Shown here one piece after another: positions 4,086 through 23,607 of a DNA stretch of 64,000 bases. The translations under genes were made by a program, and so were the position numbers. The DNA comes from Alphaproteobacteria bacterium (GTDB lineage: Bacteria > Pseudomonadota > Alphaproteobacteria > Oceanibaculales > Oceanibaculaceae). The stretch's first letter is position 1. The number at the start of each line of letters is the position of its first letter. The stretch lies in NCBI GenBank assembly GCA_018823745.1, contig JAHJHR010000012.1, positions 310,001-374,000 of the forward strand. Reading direction: 5' to 3'. A model generated the notes under the pieces. It was not told the origin of the DNA. It ran no database searches and worked only from the letters and a program-made list of their open reading frames with translations.

Positions 4086-5309
4086 ATGTTTGGGAAACCC
4101 CGTAAATCCGCAGTCTTGACGGCAGCTGCAATCGCTCTTGCATCTGCGGCCACCCTGTCCGCCGCCTCGGCCCCTGCCTGGGCGCAGGATGTGCTGCGCA
4201 TCGGCGCGCCGCTGGCGCTGACCGGCGGACTGGCCGACGAAGGCAAGAAGCAGGAATCGGTCTGGCAGCTCTGGCTCGACAAGATCAATGCGGCCGGCGG
4301 CATCAAGGTCGGCGGCAAGACGATGAAGGTCGAGATCATCAAGTACGACTACCAGACTGACGGCAAGCGCGCCGGCCAGCTGGCCGAGAAGCTGATCACC
4401 GACGACAAGGTCGATGTGCTGATGGCACCCTTCGGCTCCGGCCACACCAAGATCATCGCCGCCGTGACCGAGCGTTACCAGGTGCCGCTGCTGGCTTGCG
4501 TCGCCTCCTCCGAATCGGTGTATGACCAGAGCTTCAAGTACCTGTTCGGCACGCTGGCCCCTAACAGCGGCATGACCGATGCGATGGCCGCGCTGTACAA
4601 GCAGAAGCTGCCGACGCTGAAGAAGATCGCGATCTACGGCCGCGACGACGTGTTCCCGAAATCGATGGCGACCTCCATGGCGACCTCCGCCAAGGCCGCC
4701 GGCATCGAAGTGGCCTATAACGAGCTGTATGCCGTCGGCACGATGGATCATTCCGCCGCCATCTCGGCGATCAAGGCCGCCGGCGCGGACTGGATCTACA
4801 TGACCGGCTATACCCAGGACCTGATCCTGGGCCGCAAGCAGCTGAATGATCTGGGCGTAAAGGCGCCGATCATCACCATGGTGACCGGCCCGGCCTACAA
4901 GGAATTCACCGACGGCCTGGGCGATCTGGCCGACGGCGTGACAAGCTCCACCTGGTGGCACCATGCCACAGCCTATACCGGTGCGGCGGGCGTCTGGCCG
5001 TCGACGGAAGCCTTCTACAAAGATTTCACCACCGCCTTCAAATCCGACCCGGACTACGTCCACGCCTCCTGCGCGGCGGCCGCAGATGTGCTAGTGAATG
5101 CGGTGCAGAAGGCCGGCAGCACCGACAAGGCCAAGGTGCGTGACGCGCTGGAAGCCACCGACATGCTGACCTTCTATGGCCCGATCAAGTTCGGCCCGAA
5201 CCACATGAATCTCGGCCGTGACATGCCGATCATCCAGGTGCAGGGCAAGGACATCAAGGTGCTGTACCCGGCCAGCATCGCCAATGCCGAGATGAAGCTG
5301 ATCAAGTAA
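4086..5309 (+). CDS. HAAT-family ABC transporter substrate-binding protein (first copy)
   Basis: 407 residues. The N-terminus is a signal peptide ending APAWA-Q (about residue 33); the mature part begins [19 protein letters not shown], typical of periplasmic ligand-binding proteins of the branched-chain amino acid/amide family. The ATG at 4086 has GGAGGG 6-12 nt upstream and directly precedes the signal peptide, so the longer open frame from 3951 is rejected. It is followed by livHMGF on the same strand and is strongly similar along its whole length to the second binding protein at 8939 (shared [36 protein letters not shown] and GPAYKEF blocks). The ligand is unknown; LivJ-like naming would overstate the evidence. 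Confidence 0.9.
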
Positions 5310-5396: not shown

Positions 5397-6257
5397 GTGG
5401 ACATTCTGCAAATCCTCGTCAACGGCCTTGTGCTGGGGGCGCTCTACGCCTGTATCGCCGTTGGCTTCTCGCTGGTCTGGGGCGTGCTGAACATCATCAA
5501 CATGCTGCACGGCTCCTTCATCATTCTGGGTGGCTATCTGACCTTCTTTGCCTGGTTCTATCTGGGCCTCAACCCGATCCTGGCGCTGCCGGTGGTTGCC
5601 CTTGTGCTCTATGCGCTGGGCTATGTGCTGCAATACATCTTCATCAACAAGGTCGTGACTTCCCCGGTCCTGACGACGCTGACGCTGACCTTCGGGCTGG
5701 ACATGATCCTGTACAACCTGATGACGGTGTATTTCACCGCCACCCCACGGCGCGTGACGATGGATATGGGCAGCGCCGATATCCTGGGCGTCATCATGCC
5801 GATGGACCGCGTGATGGGCATGGCGCTGGCCTTCCTGCTGACCGGGCTGCTCTATGTGGTGATGCGCGCCTCGACCATCGGGCGGGCGATTGTCGCCGTC
5901 CGCATGGACCGCCAGGCCGCCGCGCTGATGGGCATCCGGGTCAACCGCATCTATGCCATCACGTTTGGTATCGGCGCACTGATGGCCGGTGCCGCCGGCG
6001 CCGTCTTCGCCATCGTCTTCCCGGTCACCACAAATCTGACCGGCGTCTTCCTGGGCAAGGCCTTCGTGATCTGCGTGATCGGCGGGCTGGGCAGCGTGCC
6101 GGGGGCGCTGGTTGGCGGGCTGGCGCTGGGCATCATCGAAAGCTTCGCCGGCTTTGTCCTCGGTCCGCAACACGCCATGACGCTGGGCTTCGTGCTGATG
6201 CTGGTACTGCTGGTGGTGCGCCCGACCGGCCTGATCGGCGTAAAGGGGTATGAATGA
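5397..6257 (+). CDS. livH: ABC transporter permease, LivH type
   Basis: 286 residues, matching the usual 280-310 of LivH. Hydrophobic throughout, with about eight membrane segments; the start LQILVNGLVLGALYACIAVGFSLVWGVLNIINMLHG is the family hallmark and GGLGSVPGALVGGLALG is the coupling-helix (EAA-like) region. It forms the inner-membrane channel with LivM. Start is GTG at 5397 with GAAAAGGGA upstream. Its stop overlaps the livM start by 4 bp (ATGA). Confidence 0.92.
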   Translation: MDILQILVNGLVLGALYACIAVGFSLVWGVLNIINMLHGSFIILGGYLTFFAWFYLGLNPILALPVVALVLYALGYVLQYIFINKVVTSPVLTTLTLTFGLDMILYNLMTVYFTATPRRVTMDMGSADILGVIMPMDRVMGMALAFLLTGLLYVVMRASTIGRAIVAVRMDRQAAALMGIRVNRIYAITFGIGALMAGAAGAVFAIVFPVTTNLTGVFLGKAFVICVIGGLGSVPGALVGGLALGIIESFAGFVLGPQHAMTLGFVLMLVLLVVRPTGLIGVKGYE

Positions 6258-7216
6258 TGACGCGCCGTCACATCGCCGCGCTCGGCGTGGCCCTCTGGTT
6301 TGGCATTCTGGCCCTGACGCCGCTGCTGGCCGATAATTATACAATCCGCATCGCCATCACGATTGCGATGTATTCCGCCATGGCGCTGTCGTGGAACTTC
6401 ATCGGCGGCTTCGCCGGCTATCCCTCCTTCTCGACCGCCGCCTTTTTTGGCATTGGCTGCTATGTCGGCGCGATTGCCCAGCGCAGCGGCGTGCCGCTGG
6501 TCGTCGCCTGGGCGCTGGCCACGGTTTTCGTTACCGTCTTTGCCGTCGCTCTCGGCGCGATCATCCTGCGGCTGAAGGGGCATTACTTCGCCATCGGCTC
6601 CATCGCCATCGTCGAGGTGGTGCGGCTGGTCGTCTCCTCCTGGGGCGGGCTGACCGGCGGCGGCGACGGGCTGAATGTGCCACTGCTGAGCGGCGGGCCG
6701 GACCGGGTGGCGACCACCGTGCTTTACGTCATGCTGGCGATCATGCTGGCCGCCTTCGTGGTCACCATTCTGGTCGACCGGGCGCGGCTCGGCTTCGGCC
6801 TGCGCTGCATCAGCCAGAACGAGGATGCCGCCGATATGGTCGGCATCGACACCACGCGCTACAAGATCGCCGCCTATGCCCTCTCCGCGTTGTTCTGCGG
6901 CACGGTGGGCGCGGTCTATGCCTCCTGGGTCGGCTATATCGATCCGACCGACAGCTTCTCGATCCTGCTGTCGGTGAAGGTGCCGGTCATGGTGCTGCTT
7001 GGCGGTGCCGGCACGGTGCTGGGGCCGATCATCGGCGCCGGCGCCTTTGTGATGCTGGAAGAATTCTTCTGGGCGAATTTCCTGGAATGGAACCGCGCCA
7101 TCCTGGGCGGCATCATCGTCTTCCTGATCTTCTTCCTGCCCAGCGGCATCCTGAAGCTGGATTACCGCCGGCTGTTCCGCCGCAAATCCCCAGTTGACCG
7201 GACGGAGGCAGCATGA
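6254..7216 (+). CDS. livM: ABC transporter permease, LivM type
   Basis: 320 residues, polytopic, with the LivM features [46 protein letters not shown], and the coupling region [14 protein letters not shown] near residue 255. Partner of LivH. A second ATG immediately follows the first (6257), so the exact start could be one codon later. The stop overlaps the livG start by 4 bp, keeping the operon translationally coupled. Confidence 0.92.
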
Positions 7217-8004
7217 CCGAGATATTGCGCCTGGAGAATGTCAGCAAGGCGTTCGGCGGCATCCGTGCCGTCAACGATGTCTCCTTCACCCTGAACGAGG
7301 GCGAGATTGTCGGGCTGATCGGCCCGAACGGCGCCGGCAAGACCACGCTGGTCAATCTGATCACCGGCGTACACAAGCTGACCGGCGGCAAGGTGATCTT
7401 CGCCGGCCAGGATGTCAGCCGGCAGAAGCCGTTCCAGGCGGCCCGGCGCGGGCTGGCCCGGACCTTCCAGATCGTCCAGCCCTTCCCGGCCATGACCGTG
7501 CTGGAGAATGTCGCCGCCGGCTCGCTGTTCGGCGGCGGGCACACGGCGATGGCCGATGCCAGACAGGCGGCGCGCGCCGAGCTTGATTTCGTCGGCCTGG
7601 GCGCTGTCGCCGACCAGCCGGCCGCCCTGCTCAGCCTACCCAACCGCAAGCGGCTTGAACTGGCCAAGAGCCTGGCGATGCGCCCCAAGGTGCTGCTGCT
7701 GGATGAGGTGAATGCCGGGCTGAACGCCGCCGAGATCGACGGCGCATTGTCGCTGATCCGCCAGATCGCGGCACGCGGCATCACTATCGTCATCATCGAG
7801 CATCTGATGAAGGTGGTGCTGTCGATCTCCCAGCGCATCCTGGTGCTGCACCATGGCGAGCTGATCGCCCAGGGCGACCCGACCACCGTGGTCAACGATC
7901 CGCGCGTCATCGAAGCCTATCTGGGGGCCAAATTCGCCGCCCGCTTCGGCATGACGCCCCCTGCAGCGCCCTTGGCCCCGGAGCACGGAGCACCCCATGT
8001 CTGA
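7213..8004 (+). CDS. livG: ABC transporter ATP-binding protein, LivG type
   Basis: 263 residues. Walker [10 protein letters not shown] (about 37), [19 protein letters not shown], the LivG-type signature segment [16 protein letters not shown], Walker [13 protein letters not shown] and the switch region IIEHLMKVV. Note VNAG in place of the more common PTAG after Walker B. Overlaps livM by 4 bp and livF by 8 bp, so it is the third gene of a tightly coupled livHMGF set. Confidence 0.92.
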
Positions 8005-8713
8005 GGCTTTCCTGACCATCGATTCGCTGCAATCCGGCTATGGCGACGTCCAGGTGTTGTGGGACATTTCGGTCGCCGTCGAGCGTGGCGGGATTACGTG
8101 CATCGTCGGCTCCAATGGGGCTGGCAAGACGACGCTGCTGCGCACCATCTCCGGCCTGTTGTCGCCACGCGGCGGCAGCATCCGGCTGGAGGGCGAGGAG
8201 ATCGGCGGCATGGGGCCGGATGGCGTGCTGGCGCGCGGCATCGCCCATGTGCCGGAAGGCCGCCGCCTGTTCAAGGGGCTGTCAGTGCAGGACAATCTGC
8301 TGCTGGGTGCCTATCTGCGGCGCGACCGGCCGGAGATCGAATCCGACCTGAACTTCGTCTACGACATGTTCCCGATCCTGAAGGAACGCCGCAAGCAGGA
8401 CGCCACGACGCTGTCCGGCGGCGAGCAGCAGATGTGCGCCATCGGGCGCGGGCTGCTGTCCCGTCCCAAGCTGCTGATGATCGACGAGCTGTCCCTCGGC
8501 CTTGCCCCGCGGCTGGTCGAAAAGCTGGGCGACGCCCTGATCTCGATCAACAAGACCGGCCTGACCATCCTGCTGGTCGAGCAGGATGTGATGACCGCCT
8601 TCGAGATCGCCCGCCATGCCTTCGTCATCGAGACCGGCCGCGTCTCGATGGCCGGCACGACGGAACAGCTGGGTGAGAATCCGAGAATCCGAGAAGCCTA
8701 TATGGGCATGTGA
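7997..8713 (+). CDS. livF: ABC transporter ATP-binding protein, LivF type
   Basis: 238 residues. Walker A GSNGAGKTT (about 38), signature LSGGEQQMCAIGRGL (about 137), Walker B LLMIDELSLGLAP (Glu present), LLVEQD switch. Ends the plus-strand livHMGF run; the transcript probably ends at the hairpin at 8760, separating it from the second binding-protein gene. Unlike the livF at 208-912, which has DEPTEGLAP, this one has DELSLGLAP, so the two importers are not recent duplicates of each other. Confidence 0.92.
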   Translation: MSEAFLTIDSLQSGYGDVQVLWDISVAVERGGITCIVGSNGAGKTTLLRTISGLLSPRGGSIRLEGEEIGGMGPDGVLARGIAHVPEGRRLFKGLSVQDNLLLGAYLRRDRPEIESDLNFVYDMFPILKERRKQDATTLSGGEQQMCAIGRGLLSRPKLLMIDELSLGLAPRLVEKLGDALISINKTGLTILLVEQDVMTAFEIARHAFVIETGRVSMAGTTEQLGENPRIREAYMGM

Positions 8714-8759: not shown

Positions 8760-8786
8760 ATGGGGTGCTTCGGCACCCCATTTCCG
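8760..8786 (+). terminator. Rho-independent terminator after livHMGF
   Basis: A perfect 9-bp stem ATGGGGTGC/GCACCCCAT closes a TTCG tetraloop in the especially stable C(UUCG)G context, followed by a short T run (TTTCC). It lies 46 nt after the livF stop codon. Confidence 0.75.
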
Positions 8787-8938
8787 TTCATAGCGACCAT
8801 AACTGTTGCATTTACGACTATTAGCCGGTGCTGCATAAACTGGCATGTGAATTGCTGCTCTTTCTCATCCGGTCGTCAGGGGAAACGCGACCGGCCGCGT
8901 CGCTGCTCGGACGCGGTCAAACAGGGAAAGGCACGATC

Positions 8939-10141
8939 ATGCAACAGCAGAAATCCCGTACACTCCTTCGTTCGACAGCTCTCGCTCTCGGCCTGATTGC
9001 CGGTCTGGCCGGTGCCACGCAGGCGGCCGATACCATCCGCATCGGATCGCCGCTGGCGCTGACCGGCGCGCTGGCCTCCGAGGGCGCCAAGCAGAAGCTG
9101 GCCTATGACCTCTGGCTGAAGCGCATCAACGCCGCCGGCGGCATCCAGGTCGGTAACCGCAAGCTGCCGGTGGAGCTGATCACCTATGACTACCAGACCG
9201 ACGGCAAGCGCGCCGGCCAGCTGGCCGAGAAGCTGATCACCGATGACAAGGTGGATTTTCTGACCGCGCCCTTCGGCTCCGGCCATACCAAGATCACCGC
9301 CGCCGTGGCCGAGCGCTATGGCGTGCCCATCGTCGCCGTCGCCTCGTCTGAGCCGGTGCACGACCAGGGCTTCCGCTTCCTGTTCGGCACGCTCGCCCCG
9401 TCCAGCGGGCTGATCGACGGCATGCTGGACGTGTTCCGGAAGGCCAAGCCGGATGTGAAGAAGATCGCCATTCTGGGTCGCGACGACGTGTTCCCGAAGA
9501 TCATGGCCAGCCTGATGGCCAAGGGCGCGGAGAAGGCCGGCCTCAGCGTCGTCTATAACCAGCTCTACCCGGTCGGCACGATGGATCACGCCACCGCGAT
9601 CACCAGCATGAAGTCGGCAGCACCCGACTGGATCTACGTGACCGGCTATACCGCCGATCTGGTGCTGGTGGCCAAGCAGATGTCGGATCTGGGCCTGAAC
9701 GCCCCCATCGTGACCATGATCACCGGCCCGGCCTACAAGGAGTTCGTCGATACGCTGGGCCCTCTGGCCGAGAACATCACCAGCGCCTCCTGGTGGCATT
9801 ACTCCGCCGCCTATGAAGGCGACGACGTGTTCGGCACGACCAAGGCGTTCTATGACGAGGTGCTGGCCGCCTCGGGCCAGGAGCCGGATTATGTTCACGC
9901 CTCCTCCGCCGCCGCGCTGATCACCCTGCAGAAGGCCATCGAGAAGGCCGGCTCGCTGGACCGCGAAGCTGTCCGCAAGGCGCTGACCGAGCTGGACATC
10001 AAGACCTTCTACGGCCCGATCAAGTTCCGCGCCGATGGGCTGAACGACAATCGCGACCTGCCGATCATCCAGATCCAGGGCGGCAAGCCGGTGGTGCTGG
10101 CCCCGGCCGCCATCGCCTCGTCGACGATGAAGCTGAACTGA
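8939..10141 (+). CDS. HAAT-family ABC transporter substrate-binding protein (second copy)
   Basis: 400 residues, with a signal peptide ending TQA-A (about residue 26) and mature start DTIRIGSPLALTGALASEG. AGGGAAAGG lies about 10 nt upstream of the ATG; the frame from 8828 is open but has no comparable start. It is a clear paralogue of the protein at 4086, sharing most blocks in the same order, including [16 protein letters not shown] and TFYGPIKF. Separated from livHMGF by a terminator, it may have its own promoter and present a different ligand to the same permease. It is followed 18 bp later by the PhyH-family gene, probably in one transcript. Confidence 0.9.
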   Translation: MQQQKSRTLLRSTALALGLIAGLAGATQAADTIRIGSPLALTGALASEGAKQKLAYDLWLKRINAAGGIQVGNRKLPVELITYDYQTDGKRAGQLAEKLITDDKVDFLTAPFGSGHTKITAAVAERYGVPIVAVASSEPVHDQGFRFLFGTLAPSSGLIDGMLDVFRKAKPDVKKIAILGRDDVFPKIMASLMAKGAEKAGLSVVYNQLYPVGTMDHATAITSMKSAAPDWIYVTGYTADLVLVAKQMSDLGLNAPIVTMITGPAYKEFVDTLGPLAENITSASWWHYSAAYEGDDVFGTTKAFYDEVLAASGQEPDYVHASSAAALITLQKAIEKAGSLDREAVRKALTELDIKTFYGPIKFRADGLNDNRDLPIIQIQGGKPVVLAPAAIASSTMKLN

Positions 10142-10159: not shown

Positions 10160-10987
10160 ATGACCGGCAGTCTGACCGCGGCGGAAGTCGAGCACTTCCA
10201 GTCGCAGGGGTACTTCGTGAAGAAGCGCGCCCTCTCCGCCGCCCATGCGGCGGAGCTCCGCGCCCGCATCGAGGCGTTCGAGGAGACGCTGGGCGAGGAA
10301 TGCAATGTCCGCATGAAGATCAAGGCGCATGTGGTGTCGCCCTGGATGACCGACCTTGCCCGGCATCCGGCGATCCTGGATGCAGTGGAATCGCTGCTCG
10401 GGCCGGACATCATGCTGTTCGGCTCCTCGATGTTCGCCAAATCGGCGCAGAGCAGCAAGTTTGTCTCCTGGCACCAGGATTCGGCCTATTACGGGCTGAC
10501 GCCGAATGATTCTGTGACGGTGTGGGTGGCCTTCACGCCCAGCAACAAGGCCAATGGCTGCCTGCGCGTGCTGCCCGGATCGCATCTCGGCCCGGAATAC
10601 GAGCATGACGAGACCTATGATCCGCAGAATCTGCTCGCACGCGGCCAGACCATCCACGGGCTGGACGACGACAAGGCAGCCTATCTGGAGCTGGAGCCGG
10701 GCGAGTTCTCCATGCACCATGTCCGCACCGCGCATGGGAGCCTGGGCAATTTCACCGATGACCGGCGCATCGGCCTGGCCTTCTTCTATATCGGTGCGCA
10801 TGTCGCCTCGACCCTGGGCCGGCGCACCGCGCTGCTGATGCGCGGCGAGGACAGGCACGGCCATTGGGATGCCGACCCGGTGCCGCGCATCGATCTGGAC
10901 CCCAAGACCCTGCAATTCCTGACCGATATGTGGGGCCGCTACCAGAGCAAGGAAATCCAGCAGGCCGCCAAGGCCGGCCGGGTCTAG
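10160..10987 (+). CDS. Phytanoyl-CoA dioxygenase (PhyH) family Fe(II)/2-oxoglutarate oxygenase
   Basis: 275 residues. The facial triad is visible as H105-x-D107 in SWHQDSAYYG and H192 in TAHGSLGN, with R203 well placed to bind 2-oxoglutarate. Related bacterial enzymes hydroxylate small molecules, but substrate cannot be inferred from the family. The gene follows a binding-protein gene by 18 bp, which hints that the imported compound or a breakdown product is the substrate. It ends in a CTAG where its stop and the stop of the convergent phosphoribosyltransferase gene overlap. Confidence 0.88.
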   Translation: MTGSLTAAEVEHFQSQGYFVKKRALSAAHAAELRARIEAFEETLGEECNVRMKIKAHVVSPWMTDLARHPAILDAVESLLGPDIMLFGSSMFAKSAQSSKFVSWHQDSAYYGLTPNDSVTVWVAFTPSNKANGCLRVLPGSHLGPEYEHDETYDPQNLLARGQTIHGLDDDKAAYLELEPGEFSMHHVRTAHGSLGNFTDDRRIGLAFFYIGAHVASTLGRRTALLMRGEDRHGHWDADPVPRIDLDPKTLQFLTDMWGRYQSKEIQQAAKAGRV

Positions 10988-11727
10988 GCCCCCGTGTCGG
11001 CCATCGTGCCGGCAATCGGTGCCCAGCCGCCCTCGACCCTCTCGAAGATCGGGGCGGCGAAGGCGCCGCGCACCAGCGGGGCCAATGCTGGATCGCGCTC
11101 GTTCAGCCGGGCGCGCCAGGCCACACCCTGGCGCATCGCGACGATGACGGCAGCAACCTCGCATTCCAGGCGGTCGAGCAGGTTCAGCACCGACAGCAGC
11201 GTCGTGCCGCTGGACACCGCATCATCGACCAGCGCGATGCGCCGGCCGCGCAGGCGCGGCAGCATATTGGGATCGATGAAAACCGATTTGGCGCGGTCCG
11301 GGCTGGTGATCGACTGCACCGGCTCCGATAGCTCGTCGCGGTACCAGAATTTCCGCGAATAGCCGAGCGGCAGATAATTCTCATGCCCCATCAGCCGGGC
11401 GACCAGCGGCGCGAAGACCAGCCCCAGCGTCGGCACGCCGACGACAAGCTCGGCCCCGGCGTCGCGCGCCTGCTGCGCCATGAAGCCAGCCAGCACGTCG
11501 GTCACCGCGAAACTGGCCTGATTGGCGATCAGCGAGGCAACCGCCCGGCTGCCATCCGGCAGGCGGCGCAACGGCAATACGAGAAAGCGCCCATCCGGCA
11601 GACGCGCGGGATAGCCGTAGCGAAAGGGCGGCGTCGCCTGCCCCGCCGGATGATCAGCCGGCAGAATTTCCTGCCAGAAGCCGGTGGTCGGCTTGACGAA
11701 ATCGTCCTGCTCGGGCGGGATGGCCAT
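10984..11727 (-). CDS. Type I phosphoribosyltransferase-family protein
   Basis: 247 residues from the ATG at 11727 (AGG 10-12 nt upstream; the frame extends to 11871 but only through the divergent Rieske gene). The PRPP-binding loop reads IALVDDAVSSGTT, with the two acidic residues and the SGTT turn of PRTases; an upstream AELVVGVPTLGLVFAP segment matches the fold's second strand-loop. It is longer than adenine or orotate PRTases and I do not recognise a subfamily. Its position beside oxidative and hydrolytic genes suggests nucleobase or N-heterocycle salvage or a regulatory role, but that is inference. Confidence 0.8.
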   Translation of the reverse strand: MAIPPEQDDFVKPTTGFWQEILPADHPAGQATPPFRYGYPARLPDGRFLVLPLRRLPDGSRAVASLIANQASFAVTDVLAGFMAQQARDAGAELVVGVPTLGLVFAPLVARLMGHENYLPLGYSRKFWYRDELSEPVQSITSPDRAKSVFIDPNMLPRLRGRRIALVDDAVSSGTTLLSVLNLLDRLECEVAAVIVAMRQGVAWRARLNERDPALAPLVRGAFAAPIFERVEGGWAPIAGTMADTGA

Positions 11728-11755
11728 GGATTTACCTGTGCGCGATGAGGATGGA

Positions 11756-12085
11756 ATGATCGAAAGCTGGCAGGCGGTAGCCCGGCTGGAGGCGCTGGTG
11801 CCGGACAAGCCGCAGGAGGCGGTGGTCGGCAACCGGCTGGTCCTGCTGCTGCGCCAGGGCGACGACGTCATGGCCTATCAGGGCCTGTGCCCGCATCAGG
11901 CGGCACGGCTGGCCTTCGGCCGGATCGCCGATGGCTGGCTGCACTGCCCGCATCACCAGGCCCGCTTCAATCTGACCGATGGCGCCTGCGGTCCCGGCTG
12001 GCGGCTGCCGTCGCTGAAGCGCTTCGCCACCCGCATCGAGGAGGGTGTCATCCTGCTGCCCGATCCGCTGACGCCGCTGGACTAG
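11756..12085 (+). CDS. Rieske [2Fe-2S] ferredoxin-like protein
   Basis: 109 residues. Cluster ligands are C45-P-H47 and C64-P-H-H67, matching CxH...CxxH. It resembles stand-alone Rieske ferredoxins that deliver electrons to oxygenases, or small NirD-like subunits; no oxygenase alpha subunit is adjacent. The ATG at 11756 has GAGG 8 nt upstream. An in-frame ATG at 11726 would overlap the start codon of the divergent phosphoribosyltransferase inside a CCATGG, which is possible but has a weaker ribosome site. It ends 3 bp from the stop of the convergent DUF1116 gene. Confidence 0.85.
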   Translation: MIESWQAVARLEALVPDKPQEAVVGNRLVLLLRQGDDVMAYQGLCPHQAARLAFGRIADGWLHCPHHQARFNLTDGACGPGWRLPSLKRFATRIEEGVILLPDPLTPLD

Positions 12086-12088
12086 CCC

Positions 12089-13213
12089 CTATTGCGGCCA
12101 TGGTGCGACGCCCCGGCCGATCAGCCCCTCGGTGCCTTTCTCTCCGACCATACCGAGCATCACGCCGAGGCAGGCACGCGGGCGCGTCAGATCGAGACCG
12201 ACCTTCACCCCCGGCAAGGCCGGATGTGGACCGATAAAGGCGTCATGCGCCGCTTCCGTAAAATAGGCCGCATCGACATGCTGACTCAGCGCCGCCAGAT
12301 CGGGCGCGAAGCGCAGGCAGGCCGCACCGAAACCGGCGGCATCGATCACAGCACTATCGCCGATGGCCGGCAGCGGCTGCGATTTCTCATGCCCCGGCAT
12401 GCGGCCGCCGATGGGCCGACTCGCCGGCCGGACGATCCAGCGATCCGGGTCACCGGCCAGCTTGTAGCCATGATCGACGCCATTGCCGCCGCTGGCGACC
12501 ACCATTTCGCTGCCTGGCACGCCCGCCCCCGCGCCGATCATCAGCGCGGCCGCCGCCATGATCACATTCAGCACGAACTGATTGGCCTGGGTGAGATAGG
12601 CCTCGCTCTCGGGCTTCAGGCCGGCGCTGAAGAAGCCGCGCACTGCGCCCTGGGCGGCCATCACGCGGCCATGCAGATCGTCGCCGCCGGCCAGCCCCGT
12701 GGCCAGCACCGGCAGTAGCGGCGTGGACTTCAGATTGGCGGCCAGATCCGCGCCGATACCGTCGGTCAGGCTGCGCAGCAGCGCCAGCCCCGCCGGCCTT
12801 CCGGTGCCGAGACGCAGGCAATCCGGGAGCGGGCCGTCATTCAGCGGCGAATATTTCACCGCCCCCGTCTTTGCGTCACTCACCGCCAGGCAATAGACGC
12901 TGGGGCCGAGGATGAAGGCCAGCGGCGTGACCACGCCGATATCCTGCGCCGGCGACAGAATCACCGCGCCGGAGGACAAGGCCTTGGCAGCGTCTTCCGC
13001 CGTATCGGCCCAGCCTTCATGCAGGATCGCCGCGACGGCGCTGTTGTGCATCGGCGCGGGAAGCGGGCCGGTAAAGGGCGGGCCGGCATGGAACAGTGTC
13101 TTTTCTGGCAGGCCCGGCACCAGCGCGCCCAGCGGCGCAATGCGGCTGAGAACGGGATCGACGGCCAGCAGCCGTTCGTAGGATTTCAGCGTGGCGGGCG
13201 ACGATCCGGTCAC
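12089..13213 (-). CDS. DUF1116 family protein (AllG/YlbE-like)
   Basis: 374 residues. Recognisable DUF1116 blocks include KTLFHAGPPF, HEGWADTAEDAAKALSSG, NQFVLNVIMAAAALMIG, GSEMVVASGGNGVDHGYKL and IGDSAVIDAAGFGAA. In E. coli a member of this family (YlbE/AllG) is part of the oxamate carbamoyltransferase of allantoin breakdown, working with FdrA/AllF and AllH; no FdrA-like gene is visible here and the protein is somewhat shorter than E. coli YlbE. Start is GTG at 13213 with AAGGGAGAA about 10 nt upstream. It is the last gene of the coxL-coxM-coxSG-marR run, 28 bp after marR. A carbamoyl-transfer role in this pathway is inference. Confidence 0.75.
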   Translation of the reverse strand: MTGSSPATLKSYERLLAVDPVLSRIAPLGALVPGLPEKTLFHAGPPFTGPLPAPMHNSAVAAILHEGWADTAEDAAKALSSGAVILSPAQDIGVVTPLAFILGPSVYCLAVSDAKTGAVKYSPLNDGPLPDCLRLGTGRPAGLALLRSLTDGIGADLAANLKSTPLLPVLATGLAGGDDLHGRVMAAQGAVRGFFSAGLKPESEAYLTQANQFVLNVIMAAAALMIGAGAGVPGSEMVVASGGNGVDHGYKLAGDPDRWIVRPASRPIGGRMPGHEKSQPLPAIGDSAVIDAAGFGAACLRFAPDLAALSQHVDAAYFTEAAHDAFIGPHPALPGVKVGLDLTRPRACLGVMLGMVGEKGTEGLIGRGVAPWPQ

Positions 13214-13241
13214 GGGGCGGTTCTCCCTTCGGGGTCTGGCA

Positions 13242-13751
13242 TCAATCGACGGAATCCGGGTCGGGGGCGACGGCGTCCTTGGCCTCGATGACCCGCATCA
13301 TCAGCGCGACAAGCTGCGCCTGCTCGGCCGGCGGCAGATCCTCCACCGTGCGTGCATGCGCCCGCTCCGCACGGTCGTCGATGCGGTCGAGCAAAGCGCG
13401 GCCCTCCTCGGTCAGCACGGTCAGACGCACCCGACGATCCTTCGGTGCGACCCGGCGGCGGATCAGCCCGCGCTTGCGCAGGCGTTCGAGAATATCGGCC
13501 ATGTTGGTCTTGTCGATGGCGACCGCCCGGGCCAGCGTCGTCTGATCGACCGGCCCGACCTGCGACAGCGCGGAGAGCACGGAATACATGATCGGCGTGA
13601 TTTTCTCCTCGCCGCATTCCTCGGTAAACAGGGCGGTGTGGATCTGGTGCAGGCGGCGGATCAGGAAACCCGGGCGGCCCTGCAGCGGGCCACCGCGCCA
13701 GTTCTGCTCCGGGTCGATTTTGATCGCTTCTCCCGCCTTGGCGACAGACAT
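13242..13751 (-). CDS. MarR-family transcriptional regulator
   Basis: 169 residues from the ATG at 13751 (AGGA about 9 nt upstream). A winged helix-turn-helix spans roughly residues 45-120: TPIMYSVLSALSQVG, DQTTLARAVAIDKTNMADILERL (recognition helix) and the wing RRRVAPKDRRVRLTVLTEEG. MarR proteins are usually ligand-released repressors. Being cotranscribed between the molybdenum-hydroxylase genes and the DUF1116 gene, it probably autoregulates this operon, with an aromatic or heterocyclic compound as inducer; the ligand is unknown. Confidence 0.9.
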   Translation of the reverse strand: MSVAKAGEAIKIDPEQNWRGGPLQGRPGFLIRRLHQIHTALFTEECGEEKITPIMYSVLSALSQVGPVDQTTLARAVAIDKTNMADILERLRKRGLIRRRVAPKDRRVRLTVLTEEGRALLDRIDDRAERAHARTVEDLPPAEQAQLVALMMRVIEAKDAVAPDPDSVD

Positions 13752-13800
13752 GATGTGTCCTGTTCTTGTCGGTTTTGGATGGCACAACATCAGCCGGACT

Positions 13801-14937
13801 TCACCCCAATCGCAAGAAACGTTTCAGCATCGCCTTCAGCGACGTGCCCAGCAGCGCCAGCCCGTCGAGCGGCTTTGCCGGTGCCGGCGGCGCAGCACCG
13901 ACCGCCCGCGCGGCCAGGGCAGCAGCGGCATCGGCCAGGATGCGATCCGCAATCTCCGCCACCAGCGCCGGCCGGCCGAACTGCGCCAGCGGCCCTTTCA
14001 GCGTATAGAGCATGGTCAGATCGAGCCGCGAGCGGCCATCGGGCAGCGCCTCCAGCGCGAAATCCAGCGCGCCATCGAGGCTGGAGCGGCTGAGCCCGTC
14101 GCGGCCGCTGCCGACCACCCGGCCCTGCTGCGTGGACTCGTCCAGCGTCACCTGCGCCGTGCCCCGGAAAGTCGCGCGCATCGGACCGATGGCAATGGTG
14201 CACACGCCTTGCGCCCGGCCATTCTCCACCGGCCCGTCCAGGCTGGCGCCGGGGATGCAGGAGACGACTGTGGGAATATCGCGCAGAACCGGCCAGACTT
14301 GGTCCGCCGGTGCCTCCAGCACCAGGCTGCGCGACAGGCTGATGCCATCCTTTATTTCCACCACCACCTCGGTCGCCCGGACTGACGCAGACGGCGCCGC
14401 CGCCTCGGTTGCCACAGCGGAGACCGCTGCGCGCTGGCGGCGCGGCAGGGGCATGAGACGCGCCGCCGGCGGATCACTCGCCAGCACGTCCTGGATCGCC
14501 GCGACGATGCCGGCATAGCCGGTGCAACGGCAGATATTGCCCGACAGCTCACGCCGGATGCGCGCCTCGTCGGCATCCGGTAGGCGGCGCACGATGTCAT
14601 AGCCGGTGGCCAGCATGCCCGGCGTGCAATAGCCGCATTGCAGCCCGTGATGCCGGCTGAAGGCGGCGCGCAGCCGTGCCATAAGCGGGTCATCCTCAAA
14701 CCCCTCCACGGTCTGCACGGATGCACCGTCGCAGGCCACGGCGAAGGTGATGCAGGACCGCACCGGGCGACCGTCAACATAGAGCGTGCAGGCCCCGCAG
14801 ACGCCCTGCTCGCAGCCCAGATGGGTGCCGGTCAGCAGATGATCCTCGCGCAGGAAATCGGCCAGATGGGTGCGCGGCTCGGCCGGCTTGGTGACCGGTG
14901 CGCCATTCAGCGTCAGGGTGACTTCGTGCTGGCTCAT
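13801..14937 (-). CDS. Fused [2Fe-2S] small subunit and CoxG/SRPBCC domain of a molybdenum hydroxylase
   Basis: 378 residues from the ATG at 14937 (GGAGA upstream; 1 bp after the coxM-like stop). Residues 1-155 are a xanthine dehydrogenase/CO dehydrogenase small subunit: plant-type cluster C42, C47, C50, C62 and the all-helical cluster C101, C104, C136, C138. After a proline/alanine linker, residues about 190-340 form an SRPBCC/CoxG-like domain (SRSLVLEAPADQVWPVLRDIP, CIPGASLDG, VTLDESTQQGRVVGSG). CoxG is normally a separate membrane-anchoring protein; the C-terminal stretch KAMLKRFLRLG is basic and may serve that role. The fusion should tether the enzyme or couple assembly to the subunit itself. 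Confidence 0.87.
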   Translation of the reverse strand: MSQHEVTLTLNGAPVTKPAEPRTHLADFLREDHLLTGTHLGCEQGVCGACTLYVDGRPVRSCITFAVACDGASVQTVEGFEDDPLMARLRAAFSRHHGLQCGYCTPGMLATGYDIVRRLPDADEARIRRELSGNICRCTGYAGIVAAIQDVLASDPPAARLMPLPRRQRAAVSAVATEAAAPSASVRATEVVVEIKDGISLSRSLVLEAPADQVWPVLRDIPTVVSCIPGASLDGPVENGRAQGVCTIAIGPMRATFRGTAQVTLDESTQQGRVVGSGRDGLSRSSLDGALDFALEALPDGRSRLDLTMLYTLKGPLAQFGRPALVAEIADRILADAAAALAARAVGAAPPAPAKPLDGLALLGTSLKAMLKRFLRLG

Positions 14938-14938
14938 C

Positions 14939-15739
14939 TTATTCTCCGTTCGCCTGGGCCAGCGCCCGTTCCAGGGCCGTCGCATGCAGGGCAAGTGCTT
15001 CCGGTGAGCGGCCAGGCAGGGCCTGTGTCACCGCATCGCGCGGGCTCAGCCGCCCCTCGATCACCGCCTGCGACTCTTCCAGCACCAGCGGCTGACGACC
15101 GAGTGCGCCAAGGACGCAGCGATTGACGTTCTTCGCGGGATCGACCAGAACCGTGGCGCTGGCCTTGGCGAATTCGCCGATTTGCCGGCAGAATTTCCAG
15201 TAGCCCCAGCGGGCATCCACCCCCGGCTTCGGCACCTCGATGGCGACCAGAAGATCGCCATCGCCCAGCACCGTGGCGAAGGGGCCGGTGATGAAATCCG
15301 CCATGGCGACCTCGCGTCGGCCGGACGGCCCGTCAATGATCGCCATCGCCTCCAGACCGGTCATGACGATCACCCAGTCGGCGGCAGGGTCGGCATGCGC
15401 CAGGCTGCCGCCCAGCGTGCCGCGATTGCGCACCGCGCGGTAGGCGATACCCGCCGCCGCTTCCCGCAGCCAGCCGCCGGTCGGGTCCGGCACCTCGCCA
15501 TCCTCGATCTCGGCATGGGTGATCGCCGCGCCCAGTCGCAGGCCGGTCGCGGTTTCGGTGACCGCGCGAAGCTCCGGCAGCATGGCGATATCGACCAGCC
15601 GGCCGGGCCGCGCCAGGCGCAGATTCAGCATCGGCCCCAGCGACTGATTGCCGGCCATCGGCTTGGCACCGGCGGCCAGTGCCGATTTGGCGTCCGCCAG
15701 CGCAGCGCCGGCCAGATAATCGAAAGCGGCGGGCTTCAT
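14939..15739 (-). CDS. FAD-binding medium subunit of molybdenum hydroxylase (CoxM type)
   Basis: 266 residues, close to the usual 280-290 of CoxM. The two FAD pyrophosphate-binding motifs are visible as AGNQSLGPMLNLRLARP (residues about 29-45) and TLGGSLAHADPAAD (about 107-120). It carries electrons from the Fe-S clusters to an acceptor. The ATG overlaps the large-subunit stop (ATGA), and the stop lies 1 bp before the fused small-subunit gene, so all three subunits are coupled in L-M-S order. Confidence 0.92.
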   Translation of the reverse strand: MKPAAFDYLAGAALADAKSALAAGAKPMAGNQSLGPMLNLRLARPGRLVDIAMLPELRAVTETATGLRLGAAITHAEIEDGEVPDPTGGWLREAAAGIAYRAVRNRGTLGGSLAHADPAADWVIVMTGLEAMAIIDGPSGRREVAMADFITGPFATVLGDGDLLVAIEVPKPGVDARWGYWKFCRQIGEFAKASATVLVDPAKNVNRCVLGALGRQPLVLEESQAVIEGRLSPRDAVTQALPGRSPEALALHATALERALAQANGE

Positions 15740-18096
15740 TCGGCGGCTGCCTTGCCCATGGCCAGGGCGCGCAGCACGCGCTCCGGCGTCAGGGGTATCT
15801 GGTTGACCTCGGCGCCCAGCGGTGCCAGCGCATCATTCACCGCATTGGCGATGGCGGCCGGCGGGCCAATCGCCCCGCTCTCGCCGATGCCCTTCTGGCC
15901 GAAGCGGCTGATCGGCGACGGGGTTTCCATATGCAGGATACGGGTGCGCGGAATATCGGACGCCACCGGCAGATGATAATCCGCCAAAGTAGAGGCCAGC
16001 GGCTGGCCCGAGGAATCGAACTGCATCTCCTCGAACAGCGCGGTGCCAATGCCCTGTGCCAGCCCGCCCTGCACCTGCCCGTCGACGATCATCGGGTTGA
16101 TCATGGTGCCGGCATCCTCGACGATCACGTAATCCAGCAGCTCGACATGGCCAAGCTGAAGATCGACGCTGACCACCACGGCGTGGCAGGCATAGGAGAA
16201 GGTGCCGGTGTCGCGCACCGTCTTGTAACCCTCCGTCGCCTCCAGCCCGCGCGGGTCGACATCATTGGGCAGCAACTGCGGCTTCTGGTACCAGGTGCGC
16301 GCCACCTCCTCGATGGAGACCGCCGCACTGCCGACCTTGGCGAAACCATCGGTCAGGATCACCTCCTCCGGCCGGGCCTGCAGCAGGTGGGCTGCGATGC
16401 GGCGGATGCGATCACCCAGCGCGGCCGCCGCCGTACCGACCGCCCCGCCGGCCATGACGGCGCAGCGCGAGCCCCAGGTGCCGGTGGAATATGGCGTATA
16501 GGCGGTATCGCCATGCACCAGCTTAACTTTGGCGGGGTCGATGCCGATTTCCTCATGCGCGATCTGCGCCAGCGTCGTTTCCAGCCCCTGGCCGTGGCTG
16601 TGCACGCCGACGCGCAGCTCCAGCCCGCCATCAGGCGTGAGCCGTGCGGTGGCCTGCTCGAAGCCGGGCACCATCGGGATGCCCCAGCCATGATAGACCG
16701 AGGTGCCATGCGCCCCCTGCTCGCAGAACAGCGAGAAACCGACGCCGATGCGTTTCACGCCGGACTGGCCCTTCTGCCGGGCGCGCACGCCGTCGATGTC
16801 GATGGCCTCCAGCGCGCGTTCCAGCGCCTGGGGATAGTCGCCGCTGTCGAAATACTTGTTGGTGATGTTGGTGAAGGGCATCTGGTCCGCCGTCACCAGA
16901 TTGCGGCGGCGGATATCCTCCGCCGGCAGGCCCAGCTCACGGGCGATGGCGTCCAGCAGCAGCTCCATGGCGAAGCACACGCCGGTGCGCGCCACGCCGC
17001 GATAGGGCAGGATCGGCGGCTTGTTGGTGGTCACCGCCCAGGTCTTGCAGCGGAAGCCGCGCATGCGGTACGGGCCGGGCAGGATGCTGGCGACCTGTGC
17101 CGCCTCCAGGCAGGCGGAAAACGGATAGATCGAATAGGCCCCGGAATCGACGATGGCCTGGCAATCCACCGCCAGCAGCTCGCCATCGGGGCCGGCATAG
17201 CCGGTGATCTCGTAGGAATGCTCGCGGCAATTGGCGTTGCCGGTCAGATGCTCGCGCCGGTCTTCGACCCAGCGGATCGGCCGGTCCAGCTTCATCGCCA
17301 GCCAGCCGGCCACGACTTCCTCGGCCAGCAGGATGCCCTTATAGCCGAAGCCGCCGCCGACATCCGGCGCGACGATGCGCACCTGCCCCTGGTCCAGCCC
17401 CAGGCAATCGGCGATGCCGGTGCGCACGACATGCGGCATCTGGGTGGCGCTGTGGATGGTCAGCATCTCCAGATGCCGGTCCCATACCGCGACCAGCCCG
17501 CGCCCCTCCAGCGGGGCCATGCATTGCCGGGCGGTGCGGAAGCTGCGCTTTATCACCACGGCGGCATCGCGTGCGGCGTCCTCGAAGCCGATATCGACAG
17601 TGGATTCCAGGAAGGCGTTCTCGTCCCAATGCTCATGCAGCAGCGGCGCGTCGGCATCGCGCGCGCGGGTCATGTCATGGACCGCCGGCAACTCCTCGAA
17701 ATCGACCTCGACGAGCTCCGCCAGATCCTCGGCCAGGGCGCGGTTCTCGGCCAGGCAGGCGGCGACCGGCTCGCCGACATGGCGCACCTTGCCCTGGGCC
17801 AGCACCGGCTGGGTCGAACTGCGGAAACCGGGCAGGCCGGAATTGGCGCTGATGCCCTTCACGCCGGTCAGATCGTCAATGGTGAAGACACTGGCACCGC
17901 CCTCGGCAGGCTTGGTCACGCCCCGGATGCGGGCATGCGCCAGCGGGCTGCGCACGAAGGCCATTTCCAGCATGCCGGGAAGGCGCATATCGGCGATGAA
18001 GCGGCCGCGGCCGCGCAGATAGCGGTCATCCTCGCGCCGCAGCAGGCGCGCGCCGACGCCCTTGCCGGACGTCTTTCCCTCGTTCCCCATTCCCAT
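15736..18096 (-). CDS. Molybdopterin large subunit of aldehyde oxidase/CO dehydrogenase-like hydroxylase
   Basis: 786 residues, start ATG at 18096 with GGAGGA 6 nt upstream (the frame runs to 18126). N-terminal RREDDRYLRGRGRF and GMLEMAFVRSPLAHARI are typical of the CoxL/XdhB superfamily; the catalytic Glu is present in GQKGIGESGAIGPP near residue 733. The active-site loop reads PYRGVARTG (about 363-370), the form II type, and lacks the Cys of the CSFR loop of true CO dehydrogenase, so CO is not the expected substrate. Likely hydroxylates a carbon next to nitrogen or an aldehyde. XdhC/MocA-type maturation genes are not in the window. Confidence 0.9.
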   Translation of the reverse strand: MGMGNEGKTSGKGVGARLLRREDDRYLRGRGRFIADMRLPGMLEMAFVRSPLAHARIRGVTKPAEGGASVFTIDDLTGVKGISANSGLPGFRSSTQPVLAQGKVRHVGEPVAACLAENRALAEDLAELVEVDFEELPAVHDMTRARDADAPLLHEHWDENAFLESTVDIGFEDAARDAAVVIKRSFRTARQCMAPLEGRGLVAVWDRHLEMLTIHSATQMPHVVRTGIADCLGLDQGQVRIVAPDVGGGFGYKGILLAEEVVAGWLAMKLDRPIRWVEDRREHLTGNANCREHSYEITGYAGPDGELLAVDCQAIVDSGAYSIYPFSACLEAAQVASILPGPYRMRGFRCKTWAVTTNKPPILPYRGVARTGVCFAMELLLDAIARELGLPAEDIRRRNLVTADQMPFTNITNKYFDSGDYPQALERALEAIDIDGVRARQKGQSGVKRIGVGFSLFCEQGAHGTSVYHGWGIPMVPGFEQATARLTPDGGLELRVGVHSHGQGLETTLAQIAHEEIGIDPAKVKLVHGDTAYTPYSTGTWGSRCAVMAGGAVGTAAAALGDRIRRIAAHLLQARPEEVILTDGFAKVGSAAVSIEEVARTWYQKPQLLPNDVDPRGLEATEGYKTVRDTGTFSYACHAVVVSVDLQLGHVELLDYVIVEDAGTMINPMIVDGQVQGGLAQGIGTALFEEMQFDSSGQPLASTLADYHLPVASDIPRTRILHMETPSPISRFGQKGIGESGAIGPPAAIANAVNDALAPLGAEVNQIPLTPERVLRALAMGKAAAE

Positions 18097-18269
18097 CGCG
18101 GCTCCTCCGACTTTGCGTCCAGACAAGCCCTCCCCCTGCGGCCTTATGGGCCTTGACAGCCGGGCCTTGCTGGACCAGCTTTTTTAAAGAGTTTAAGTGC
18201 AACGGTCGGTATTACAACTTTTTTTGATTTTGCCGATTCAGCCTGTGTTTGCGCGCGAAAGGGAAGGCC
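18097..18269. promoter_or_regulatory. Divergent promoter region of the hydroxylase operon and the amidohydrolase
   Basis: 173 bases between the two divergent starts, with an AT-rich core around 18181-18235 (runs of T and A on both strands). A TTGACA occurs at 18153-18158 but I see no matching -10 hexamer 16-18 bp on. The MarR regulator of the operon would be expected to bind here; no clean palindrome is evident by eye. Confidence 0.45.
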
Positions 18270-19535
18270 ATGAGCGACAAGCCGACATTCGATACGGTGA
18301 TCCTGAACGGCACCTTGGTCGACCCCGCCGCCAAGCGCCATGGCCGTTTCGATATCGGCGTGCGCGGCGGCAGGATCGCCGCCGTTGAGCCCGATCTGTC
18401 CAGCGCATCCGCCCTGCAGCGAATCAATGCCGCCGGGCTGCATGTGCTGCCCGGCATGATCGACACCCATGCCCATGTCTATGAGCATGTGACCGGCAAA
18501 TTCGGGCTGAACCCCGACATGGTCGGCGTGCGCTCCGGCGTCACCACGCTGATCGATCAGGGCGGTCCCAGCTGCATGACCATCGGCGGCTTCCGCAATT
18601 TCATCGTCGAACCGTCGATCAGCCGGGTGCTGTGCTACATTTCCAGCTATCTCGTCGGCGGGCTGGAAGGCCATCTCTACCCCGATCTCTACGGCCCGAA
18701 CGGCGTGAATGTCGAGCACACCATCAGCGCCGCGCGGCTGAACCTCGATATCGTTAAGGGCATCAAGGCGCATGCCGAGATCGGCGGCCAGTCGCGCTGG
18801 GGCGTGGAGGTCATCAAGCTGGGCAAGCAGATTTCCCGCGAATTGGAGTTGCCGCTCTATATCCATCTGGGCCAGCTCTGGCCGACCGCCGATTCAGCGC
18901 CGATCCCCGACCCGGACGAGCTGATCCGCGAGCTGATGCCGATCATCGAGGCCGGCGACATCCTGGCCCATCCCTTCACCCGCCATCCCGGCGGCTTCAT
19001 CTCGGAGGCCGGAGAGGTGCATCCGCTGCTGCTGGAGGCGGTGCATCAGGGCGGGTTGCATGTCGATGTCGGCCATGGCTCGCATTTCAGCTTCGATGCG
19101 GCGCGCCGGGTGCTGGATGCCGGCATCCTGCCCTATACGCTGGGCGCTGACATGCATGGCTATAATGTGCAGGTGCCGAAATCGAACGAGAACAGCGACC
19201 GCGAAACCAGCCCGTTCTTCGGCGTCGCCCCGTTCAACCTGACCATTGCCATGACCGAGCTGCTGCATCTGGGCGTGCCGCTGGAACAGGTGGTGGCGAT
19301 GGTCACATCCAATCCCGCTTCCCTGCTGGGCATGGAAGACCAGCTTGGCACGCTGCAACCGGGGCGCGAGGCGGATGTGAGCGTGCTGAAAATCGAGACC
19401 GGCCGCTTCAAGCTGTCCGATAATTCCGGTGTCGAAATGACGAGCGAGCACCTGATACGCCCGGTCTTCTGCCTGCGCGCCGGCCGGCGCATTGATGCAG
19501 ATTCCTTCTTTGTGCCCGACGCCATCGCCGCGTGA
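18270..19535 (+). CDS. Amidohydrolase-superfamily metallohydrolase, COG3964/deacetylase-like
   Basis: 421 residues; ATG at 18270 follows AAGGGAAGG. Metal-site features of the amidohydrolase barrel are visible: H67-A-H69 in DTHAHVYEH, a lysine in KGIKAH that may be carboxylated, His in LYIHLGQLW, HPFTRHPGG, and the late Asp in LGADMHGY. The GVRSGVTTLIDQGG segment matches the COG3964 group of predicted amidohydrolases, for which experimentally tested members cleave acyl or cyclic amide-like esters and amides. It is divergent from the molybdenum hydroxylase operon and probably acts in the same pathway, opening or deacylating the oxidised product. Dihydroorotase/hydantoinase activity is an alternative. 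Confidence 0.85.
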   Translation: MSDKPTFDTVILNGTLVDPAAKRHGRFDIGVRGGRIAAVEPDLSSASALQRINAAGLHVLPGMIDTHAHVYEHVTGKFGLNPDMVGVRSGVTTLIDQGGPSCMTIGGFRNFIVEPSISRVLCYISSYLVGGLEGHLYPDLYGPNGVNVEHTISAARLNLDIVKGIKAHAEIGGQSRWGVEVIKLGKQISRELELPLYIHLGQLWPTADSAPIPDPDELIRELMPIIEAGDILAHPFTRHPGGFISEAGEVHPLLLEAVHQGGLHVDVGHGSHFSFDAARRVLDAGILPYTLGADMHGYNVQVPKSNENSDRETSPFFGVAPFNLTIAMTELLHLGVPLEQVVAMVTSNPASLLGMEDQLGTLQPGREADVSVLKIETGRFKLSDNSGVEMTSEHLIRPVFCLRAGRRIDADSFFVPDAIAA

Positions 19536-21878: not shown

Positions 21879-21882
21879 CCGG

Positions 21883-23604: not shown

Positions 23605-23607
23605 GGA

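Follow-up and report, generated by a model that had tools for sequence, protein, structure and literature searches.

What route is encoded when genes for a molybdenum hydroxylase, an amidohydrolase and a stand-alone DUF1116 protein lie side by side? We asked this of a 64,000-nucleotide stretch of contig JAHJHR010000012.1 from an Oceanibaculaceae genome (the window), which carries a CoxLMS-CoxG molybdenum hydroxylase, a COG3964-type amidohydrolase and DUF1116 together. An earlier sequence-only reading had proposed one catabolic pathway here and a check for co-occurrence in other genomes; we found the three together at the window and 16 further loci in 12 genera, spanning Alpha- and Betaproteobacteria. 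We put at about even the chances that this conserved locus encodes import of an N-heterocycle and its degradation by oxidation, ring opening and hydrolysis, with DUF1116 as the hydrolase. The core genes are as follows.

12089..13213, minus strand: stand-alone DUF1116/AllG-domain protein (PF06545, 120.7 bits)
13242..13790, minus strand: MarR-family regulator (several NCBIfam MarR models, every one under its cut-off)
13801..14937, minus strand: CoxS-CoxG fusion, a 2Fe-2S subunit with a CoxG domain (PF00111, PF01799 and PF06240 on a single open reading frame (ORF))
14939..15739, minus strand: CoxM, FAD subunit (PF00941, FAD_binding_5, 140.5 bits)
15736..18126, minus strand: CoxL, molybdopterin subunit (PF02738 and PF20256, MoCoBD_1/2; PF01315)
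18270..19535, plus strand: COG3964-type amidohydrolase (NF006689/PRK09237, 378.3 bits, cut-off 371; ORF from 18249)

CoxL, CoxM, CoxSG, MarR and DUF1116 follow one another leftward on a single strand between 18126 and 12089, neighbouring genes overlapping or standing no more than 28 bases apart, and the amidohydrolase diverges from this operon, rightward from about 18270. ORF calls and family scans recovered the genes that the sequence-only reading had named, at the positions it gave. In-frame ATGs made 14937 (CoxSG) and 18270 (amidohydrolase) the likelier starts, as they did 4086, 8939 and 11727 for the flanking genes SBP1, SBP2 and the phosphoribosyltransferase described below. A CHASE-domain hybrid kinase adjoins the amidohydrolase, followed by a series of histidine kinases and response regulators (window 19680-27181); this kinase was not seen beside the cluster in relatives.

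We counted a locus when CoxL (at least 60% identity), the amidohydrolase and DUF1116 lay together. The 16 loci, drawn from a class search, GTDB contigs and plasmids (L049, L050, L038, L039, L007, L009, L011, L077, L040+L094, L110, L082, L083, L098, L042, L045 and L046), belong with the window to Oceanibaculum, Hwanghaeella, Pseudolabrys, Rhodopseudomonas (a metagenome-assembled genome, MAG), Pacificitalea, Azospirillum, Caballeronia, Paraburkholderia and four genera that we know by handle (g29, g42, g81 and g181), of which g42 is probably Sneathiella, judging in part by its fused protein. Parts of all three genes also occur on a 5-kb MAG piece (L008), and the O. pacificum trio is split over two contigs (L006, L095). 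Across the class, DUF1116 was found in 30 of 385 genomes and 23 of 276 genera (E 1e-20) and the amidohydrolase in 19 of 385 genomes and 12 of 276 genera (E 1e-70). Eight genera held both against 1.0 expected (P = 2.6e-7 over 276 genera, the overlap being taken by hand from two search tables), indicating a gene set beyond chance neighbourhood, and in five of the eight the two genes are physically linked. Phylum searches returned the amidohydrolase (1e-110) in 11 of 398 genomes and DUF1116 (1e-35) in 7 of 397; among the new genomes, G613 and G607 were of the AllG type with FdrA and a kinase and G758 carried a Rieske-oxygenase/DUF1116/amidase operon. Order- and family-level searches covered four genomes of one genus. 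DUF1116 is a single gene in the whole genome; its best matches are in three genomes of the same genus, and the O. pacificum protein is 91% identical, so that the window probably comes from an Oceanibaculum. Gene starts in relatives came from a home-made caller that missed some ORFs, and presence was scored by tblastn with thresholds that we set. The tree and presence matrix omit 2-4 kb duplicates (L001-L005, L012-L037), L008, L084, L122 and L123; the matrix also omits L058-L076, L086, L095, L097, L100-L106, L114 and L125-L142, and L148-L155 were added later.

The role of DUF1116 was approached through the loci that lack it. Among loci with CoxL and the amidohydrolase, an alpha/beta-hydrolase occurred at 7 of the 13 without DUF1116 (Methylobacterium, Geminicoccaceae and several others known by handle) and at none of the 17 with it (Fisher 8e-4, kinship not corrected, the window and L086 being included); with those two removed the counts were 7/12 and 0/16 (Fisher 7e-4). 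Whole-genome searches detected DUF1116 in none of seven genomes of this second type, and a close alpha/beta-hydrolase (at least 57%) in five of these seven and in none of 12 genomes with stand-alone DUF1116 (best 41%). This mutual exclusion, at loci and in genomes, suggests that the two proteins do the same hydrolytic job. On this sequence evidence DUF1116 most likely provides a stand-alone hydrolase-like step following ring oxidation and opening. Azospirillum brasilense Sp7 carries the DUF1116 type of cluster, at L084, and Methylobacterium the alpha/beta-hydrolase type, with the hydrolase gene at L108:12277-13143. In G299 and G376, a 48% amidohydrolase adjoins a different alpha/beta-hydrolase, PcaD/RutD-like but under the cut-offs. 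The G560 alpha/beta-hydrolase (L154 1971-2761) was matched in two pieces and may be broken or reflect a sequencing error.

The sequence-only reading had given DUF1116 a part in carbamoyl transfer, a claim that comparison with AllFGH did not support. In E. coli, AllF, AllG and AllH are all required together for oxamic transcarbamylase activity, according to PMC11326118, and PMC12625717 treats DUF1116 as an allFGH component. AllH (PF11392) had no match in G000-G003 (the E. coli control was positive; G000, the genome of the window, is 93% complete) and was found in 4 of 25 genomes, none of them among the four Oceanibaculum. For AllF (FdrA), G000 gave only a 27-bit match, probably SucD, versus 1052 bits in G301; best matches in the nine of ten genomes other than G301 reached 27-41 bits (27-31% over about 150-185 residues), these weak matches lying in frames of 291-355 amino acids that are probably SucD. 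FdrA adjoins 11 of 11 loci of the AllG clade (SH-aLRT 99 in the DUF1116 tree) and none of 29 other DUF1116 loci, and a tblastn search of the whole window gave no match to the AllG-linked type of carbamate kinase. Residues H42, E66, D178, H181, N244, D286 and S287 are common to the window DUF1116 and AllG-clade rows; position 90 is Q in place of the H of AllG. We consider it very improbable that DUF1116 acts in carbamoyl transfer as AllG does within AllFGH, the pathway giving carbamoyl phosphate. Membership of one Pfam family and the seven common core residues speak for such a role, as do HpxZ and amidase neighbours in four genera (see below), which also fit oxalurate-type chemistry; against these stand the E. 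coli requirement for all three proteins (PMC11326118), the failure to find AllH or a real AllF in Oceanibaculum, the lack of an AllG-linked kinase in the window, the separate AllG clade and Q90. Another stand-alone kind of DUF1116 accompanies Rieske oxygenases and amidases (L043, L044, L079, L081, L099 and L148). In Paracoccus aminovorans and G758, two of these operons (L148 and L079) resemble each other in joining a Rieske oxygenase, a HIBADH-like dehydrogenase, DUF1116 and an amidase, a context for which we found no description.

The preferred reading, of N-heterocycle degradation with DUF1116 as the hydrolase, begins with the molybdenum enzyme. Its xanthine-oxidase-family set is complete, with molybdenum-cofactor (PF02738/PF20256), FAD (PF00941) and two-[2Fe-2S] (PF00111/PF01799) subunits, and the best Protein Data Bank (PDB) match of CoxL is quinoline 2-oxidoreductase (1t3q, 504 bits). 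Two other identities were rejected. Aerobic CO dehydrogenase, in which we take the loop AYRCSFR of CoxL to hold the active-site cysteine, was set aside because the window reads LPYRGVAR and TIGR02416 scored 482.8 bits against a cut-off of 991. Xanthine dehydrogenase was set aside on the sequence GGGFGYKG, compared with GGGFGGKE in the L096 XdhB, where the glutamate after GGGFGGK is presumably the equivalent of bovine E802; the listed xanthine dehydrogenase (XDH) models all fell below cut-off. Plasmid pSymA of Sinorhizobium meliloti also carries CoxLMS-CoxG (L107 9001-13456; CoxL 63% identity), next to diaminopropionate ammonia-lyase and transhydrogenase genes and with no amidohydrolase in the stretch.

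The amidohydrolase, whose best PDB match is 2ogj, retained the motifs HxH, K, H, H and D, which we take to be the binuclear metal ligands, in every one of the 34 rows of an alignment of the window with 33 relatives. We know of no physiological substrate for the COG3964 family, although characterised members reportedly cleave acetylated hydroxy acids (Ornelas et al. 2013). That activity, together with the second-best NCBIfam model for CoxL (glyceraldehyde dehydrogenase, under its cut-off), would accommodate a route with no heterocycle at all, in which the molybdenum enzyme oxidises aldehydes and the amidohydrolase acts as an ester- or N-deacylase. We regard this as decidedly improbable, because the closest solved relative of CoxL is quinoline 2-oxidoreductase and because nucleobase, ureide or pyridine genes neighbour the cluster in several relatives.

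The regulator offers a further view of DUF1116. Six MarR-DUF1116 fusions were present among the 120 proteins listed of 192 found, and the four with a named source are from Sneathiella (fusion locus L039). The fusion ties regulator and DUF1116 to one pathway, without proving DUF1116 a sensor. A DUF1116 that serves as the ligand-binding partner of MarR, and not as a pathway enzyme, would account for this single protein and for a MarR gene within 0.5 kb of DUF1116 at 12 of the 17 such loci in Alphaproteobacteria. Yet MarR is kept at loci that have no DUF1116 (for example L108, L090 and L118), and in L077, L082, L083 and L098 the two are 4.6-6.2 kb apart; no MarR gene was detected in L042, L045, L046 and L115. 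That polar residues are conserved, and that an alpha/beta-hydrolase can replace the protein, also suits an enzyme better, and we think such a binding role distinctly unlikely.

Upstream of the core lie an importer and genes that vary among relatives.

4086..5309, plus strand: SBP1, Peripla_BP_6 binding protein (PF13458, 207 bits; ORF from 3951)
5397..6257, plus strand: livH permease (PF02653)
6254..7216, plus strand: livM permease (PF02653)
7213..8004, plus strand: livG ATPase (PF00005, PF12399)
7997..8713, plus strand: livF ATPase (PF00005)
8939..10141, plus strand: SBP2, second binding protein (PF13458, 200 bits; ORF from 8828)
10160..10987, plus strand: PhyH-family 2-oxoglutarate oxygenase (PF05721, 110.8 bits)
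10984..11727, minus strand: phosphoribosyltransferase, PRK06031 family (PF00156; NF004689, 309 bits, cut-off 175; ORF from 11871)
11720..12085, plus strand: Rieske-type [2Fe-2S] ferredoxin (start uncertain, 11720 to 11756)

The proposed livHMGF importer is present, but it has two binding proteins where a single one was envisaged: SBP1 precedes livH and SBP2 precedes PhyH. PhyH starts 18 bases after SBP2, and the Rieske ferredoxin and DUF1116 genes are tail to tail. The ferredoxin, weak against the AndAb/NirD NCBIfam models (best AndAb, 55 bits, under the cut-off of 150), was recovered in relatives by tblastn. The assignment of all these genes to a single pathway held for the conserved core cluster; the phosphoribosyltransferase, PhyH and the Rieske ferredoxin, each absent from several otherwise similar loci, are accessory and not core members. 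The phosphoribosyltransferase may have a regulatory function, as PurR does. An arginase-family ureohydrolase lies beside it in Rhodopseudomonas (L009 13416-14381, above the agmatinase model cut-off) and Pseudolabrys (L011 13446-14390), and an ORF at window 62162-62656 (plus strand), resembling xanthine-guanine phosphoribosyltransferase by eye, would be a second phosphoribosyltransferase in the window. Upstream of SBP1, the opposite strand carries another livF/livG pair (window 211-1693, minus strand), which may serve a different importer.

Importer and core are joined by a conserved upstream element, which reads AAAGAGTTTAAGTGCAACGGTCGGTATTACAACTTTTTT in the window, with TTACAACT common to all seven aligned loci; GTATTACAACTTTTTT, allowing up to three mismatches, occurs once in the window against 0.00 expected.

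18186..18224, plus strand: conserved upstream element, divergent CoxL/amidohydrolase intergenic region (alignment of seven loci from four genera)
3938..3976, strand not assigned: element match about 110 bases before SBP1 (score 9.6; the window's best after the training site)
8786..8824, plus strand: weaker element match about 115 bases before SBP2 (score -7.4; fourth-ranked in the window)

A matrix trained on six CoxL/amidohydrolase promoter sites only, scanned over about 128,000 placements in the window, gave places upstream of binding-protein genes in the window and in L006 (23.4 and 7.1), L049 (6.1), L050 (6.5 and 1.1), L038 (16.4) and L039 (14.4), the SBP2-equivalent places being those at 7.1 in L006 and 1.1 in L050. 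In these five relatives the places rank first or next after the training site, and maxima in three mononucleotide shuffles of each locus were -2.6 or lower; the window, L006, L049 and L050 are one genus and thus non-independent. The SBP2 match in the window (-7.4) is outscored by an unrelated place at 31604 (-5.0), and Hwanghaeella gave no transporter-side match with the six-site matrix. In Pacificitalea L077, outside the training set, the best place of a core matrix (16 sites) scored 14.0, 76 bases upstream of a binding-protein gene, compared with at most 7.2 in four shuffles and 9.3 at an unrelated place in the same locus. A common element thus stands at three transcription units, weakly before SBP2, and its position both at the CoxL/amidohydrolase promoter and upstream of transporter genes supports one regulon. 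From the place of its gene in the operon, MarR may be the protein that binds the element; the divergent promoter of the window held no 7+7-base inverted repeat (one mismatch, spacer up to 10).

Which ring might be degraded is suggested by neighbours in relatives. HpxZ and a PRK08310-kind amidase lie inside the cluster in g29, g306, Azospirillum and Caballeronia (L038, L115, L078/L110 and L082); Caballeronia HpxZ is above the NF033625 cut-off and its PRK08310-family amidase below that of AtzE. HpxZ, which owes its oxalurate role to the name given by NCBI, presumably belongs to the DUF3225 family. The DUF3225 protein AtzH probably has 1,3-dicarboxyurea as its substrate (PMC6219798). The Azospirillum cluster also has a gamma-glutamyltransferase-family gene; at the window edge (62814-63980, plus strand), a tblastn match to that protein was seen (31%, 97 bits). 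In G301, genes for a xanthine permease (TIGR03173, 462 versus 414), XDH subunits, urate oxidase, OHCU decarboxylase, a protein of the gamma-glutamyltranspeptidase family and all of AllFGH lie no more than about 25 kb from the operon, and the 48% amidohydrolase of G299 sits among ureidoglycolate lyase, allantoicase and AtzD/TrzD-family genes. A deaminase-like protein of g181 and L092:8488-9654 received no NCBIfam name at 1e-15. HpxZ and amidase in four genera and the purine region in one point to a ureide- or purine-like ring, and we favour such a substrate, with breakdown ending in an oxalurate- or oxamate-like acid amide.

Several observations weigh against the preferred reading or its ureide branch. 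HpxZ and the amidase have no match in the window, and HpxZ is common at large (17 of 25 genomes), with a distant copy (43%) elsewhere in this genome. CoxL has no glutamate after GGGFGYK and so does not present a xanthine-type site. The g181 DUF1116 falls outside the window's clade (deep branches are weak), and the purine neighbourhood of g181, like the pyridine genes of Azospirillum, may be a chance neighbour in a catabolic island. PDB searches gave DUF1116 no known catalytic relative, the sole clear match being 3clq, of unknown function; the lack of further matches is no proof of a unique fold. Six of the 13 loci without DUF1116 (L085, L086, L087, L088, L116 and L120) have no alpha/beta-hydrolase either; the first four are on short contigs or were partly fetched, and L116 and L120 still had none when extended. 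DUF1116 is thus not always needed. Nor is CoxL, since the fetched stretches of L115 and L121 hold genes for the amidohydrolase and DUF1116 and none for CoxL; L121 has a short-chain dehydrogenase/reductase (SDR) and a 2-oxoglutarate oxygenase, as if these stood in place of the molybdenum enzyme. Near the cluster genes of L009, L010, L011, L040, L094, L110, L082, L098, L042, L108, L118, L115 and L121 the scans detected no copy of the element, and the six-site matrix gave none in L109, L090 and L116; L045, L046 and L083 were left out of the scan. Among CoxL relatives at 50-54%, two of three examined (L112, L113) have genes of the 2,5-dihydroxypyridine pathway as neighbours, while L111, the third, has other genes in common with L112, contexts that a pyridine ring would fit equally.

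These contexts bear on the possibility that the ring degraded is of the pyridine type (a pyridine carboxylate, for example) and that the molybdenum enzyme hydroxylates it. Two 50-52% CoxL homologues lie beside genes of the 2,5-dihydroxypyridine dioxygenase type, isochorismatase, deformylase-type or Asp/Glu racemase genes, and such genes also flank the Azospirillum locus and, partly, that of G083. The window, however, has no homologue of the dihydroxypyridine dioxygenase, Rieske oxygenase or maleamate-amidase of those loci, a Variovorax 2,5-dihydroxypyridine dioxygenase query matched nowhere in it, and aromatic pyridones are, from general chemistry, poor substrates for a cyclic amidohydrolase. 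We consider a pyridine route rather unlikely.

Under the preferred N-heterocycle reading, we infer each reaction, the order of steps, the binding of MarR to the element and the substrate class. The liv-type transporter would import an N-heterocyclic compound, CoxLMS-CoxG would oxidise a ring carbon adjoining nitrogen to give a cyclic amide, which the amidohydrolase would then open, and DUF1116, with neither AllF nor AllH as partner, would hydrolyse the ring-opened intermediate; PhyH may add a hydroxylation in a subset of genomes, with the phosphoribosyltransferase and Rieske ferredoxin as accessory genes. Of the scheme first proposed (import, hydroxylation, ring opening or deacylation, carbamoyl handling), the gene families fit hydroxylation and cyclic-amide hydrolysis, and the carbamoyl step has been dropped. 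A more specific version is tentative and, in our view, rather doubtful: an undescribed route that starts from a ring resembling hydantoin, a ureide or a purine and yields an acid amide of the oxalurate/oxamate type, in which DUF1116 would be a new class of single-protein hydrolase, interchangeable with an alpha/beta-hydrolase, its fold matching no characterised enzyme found, fused to MarR in Sneathiella, and AllG would be a specialised offshoot. Within the openly licensed PMC text accessible to searches (DUF1116, oxamate carbamoyltransferase, COG3964, Atu3266, 8JE0/8WZY/2OGJ, parabanate/hydantoin), no description of the cluster was found. Two candidates were rejected on the parts available: lumichrome catabolism (molybdenum hydroxylase and amidases; PMC12746152), with a different gene set, and a quinaldine degrader (PMC3534580), with no match to the cluster. 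If true, the reading would assign a pathway to a cluster now annotated 'xanthine dehydrogenase family protein' or 'oxamate carbamoyltransferase', give DUF1116 a role outside a three-subunit enzyme and lend COG3964 amidohydrolases a physiological context, and it can be tested in laboratory strains of both cluster types.

The locus resembles several known systems in part. Like quinoline 2-oxidoreductase and related N-heterocycle molybdenum hydroxylases, it encodes a three-subunit xanthine-oxidase-family enzyme; unlike quinoline 2-oxidoreductase, its CoxS is fused to CoxG and it is linked to an amidohydrolase and DUF1116. With COG3964 amidohydrolases (PRK09237; 2ogj/Atu3266, EF_0837) it shares a score above the NF006689 cut-off and the five metal-ligand motifs, but the window type is tied to a molybdenum hydroxylase at most loci seen. 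Pyridine-carboxylate (nicotinate/picolinate) pathways have CoxLMSG related at 50-54%, often with a liv-type transporter, whereas homologues of their dihydroxypyridine dioxygenase and isochorismatase are missing from the window. HpxZ and amidase of the Hpx/Atz ureide modules (HpxWXYZ; AtzGEH, PMC6219798) lie inside the clusters of four relatives and are absent from the window. With AllFGH (E. coli allFGH; PMC11326118) the locus shares the AllG domain and, in some relatives, a link to oxalurate/oxamate-type chemistry; its DUF1116, by contrast, belongs to a separate clade, has a molybdenum hydroxylase and a COG3964 amidohydrolase as neighbours and is fused to MarR in Sneathiella, and neither AllH nor a real AllF was found in the genome, nor a carbamate kinase in the window.

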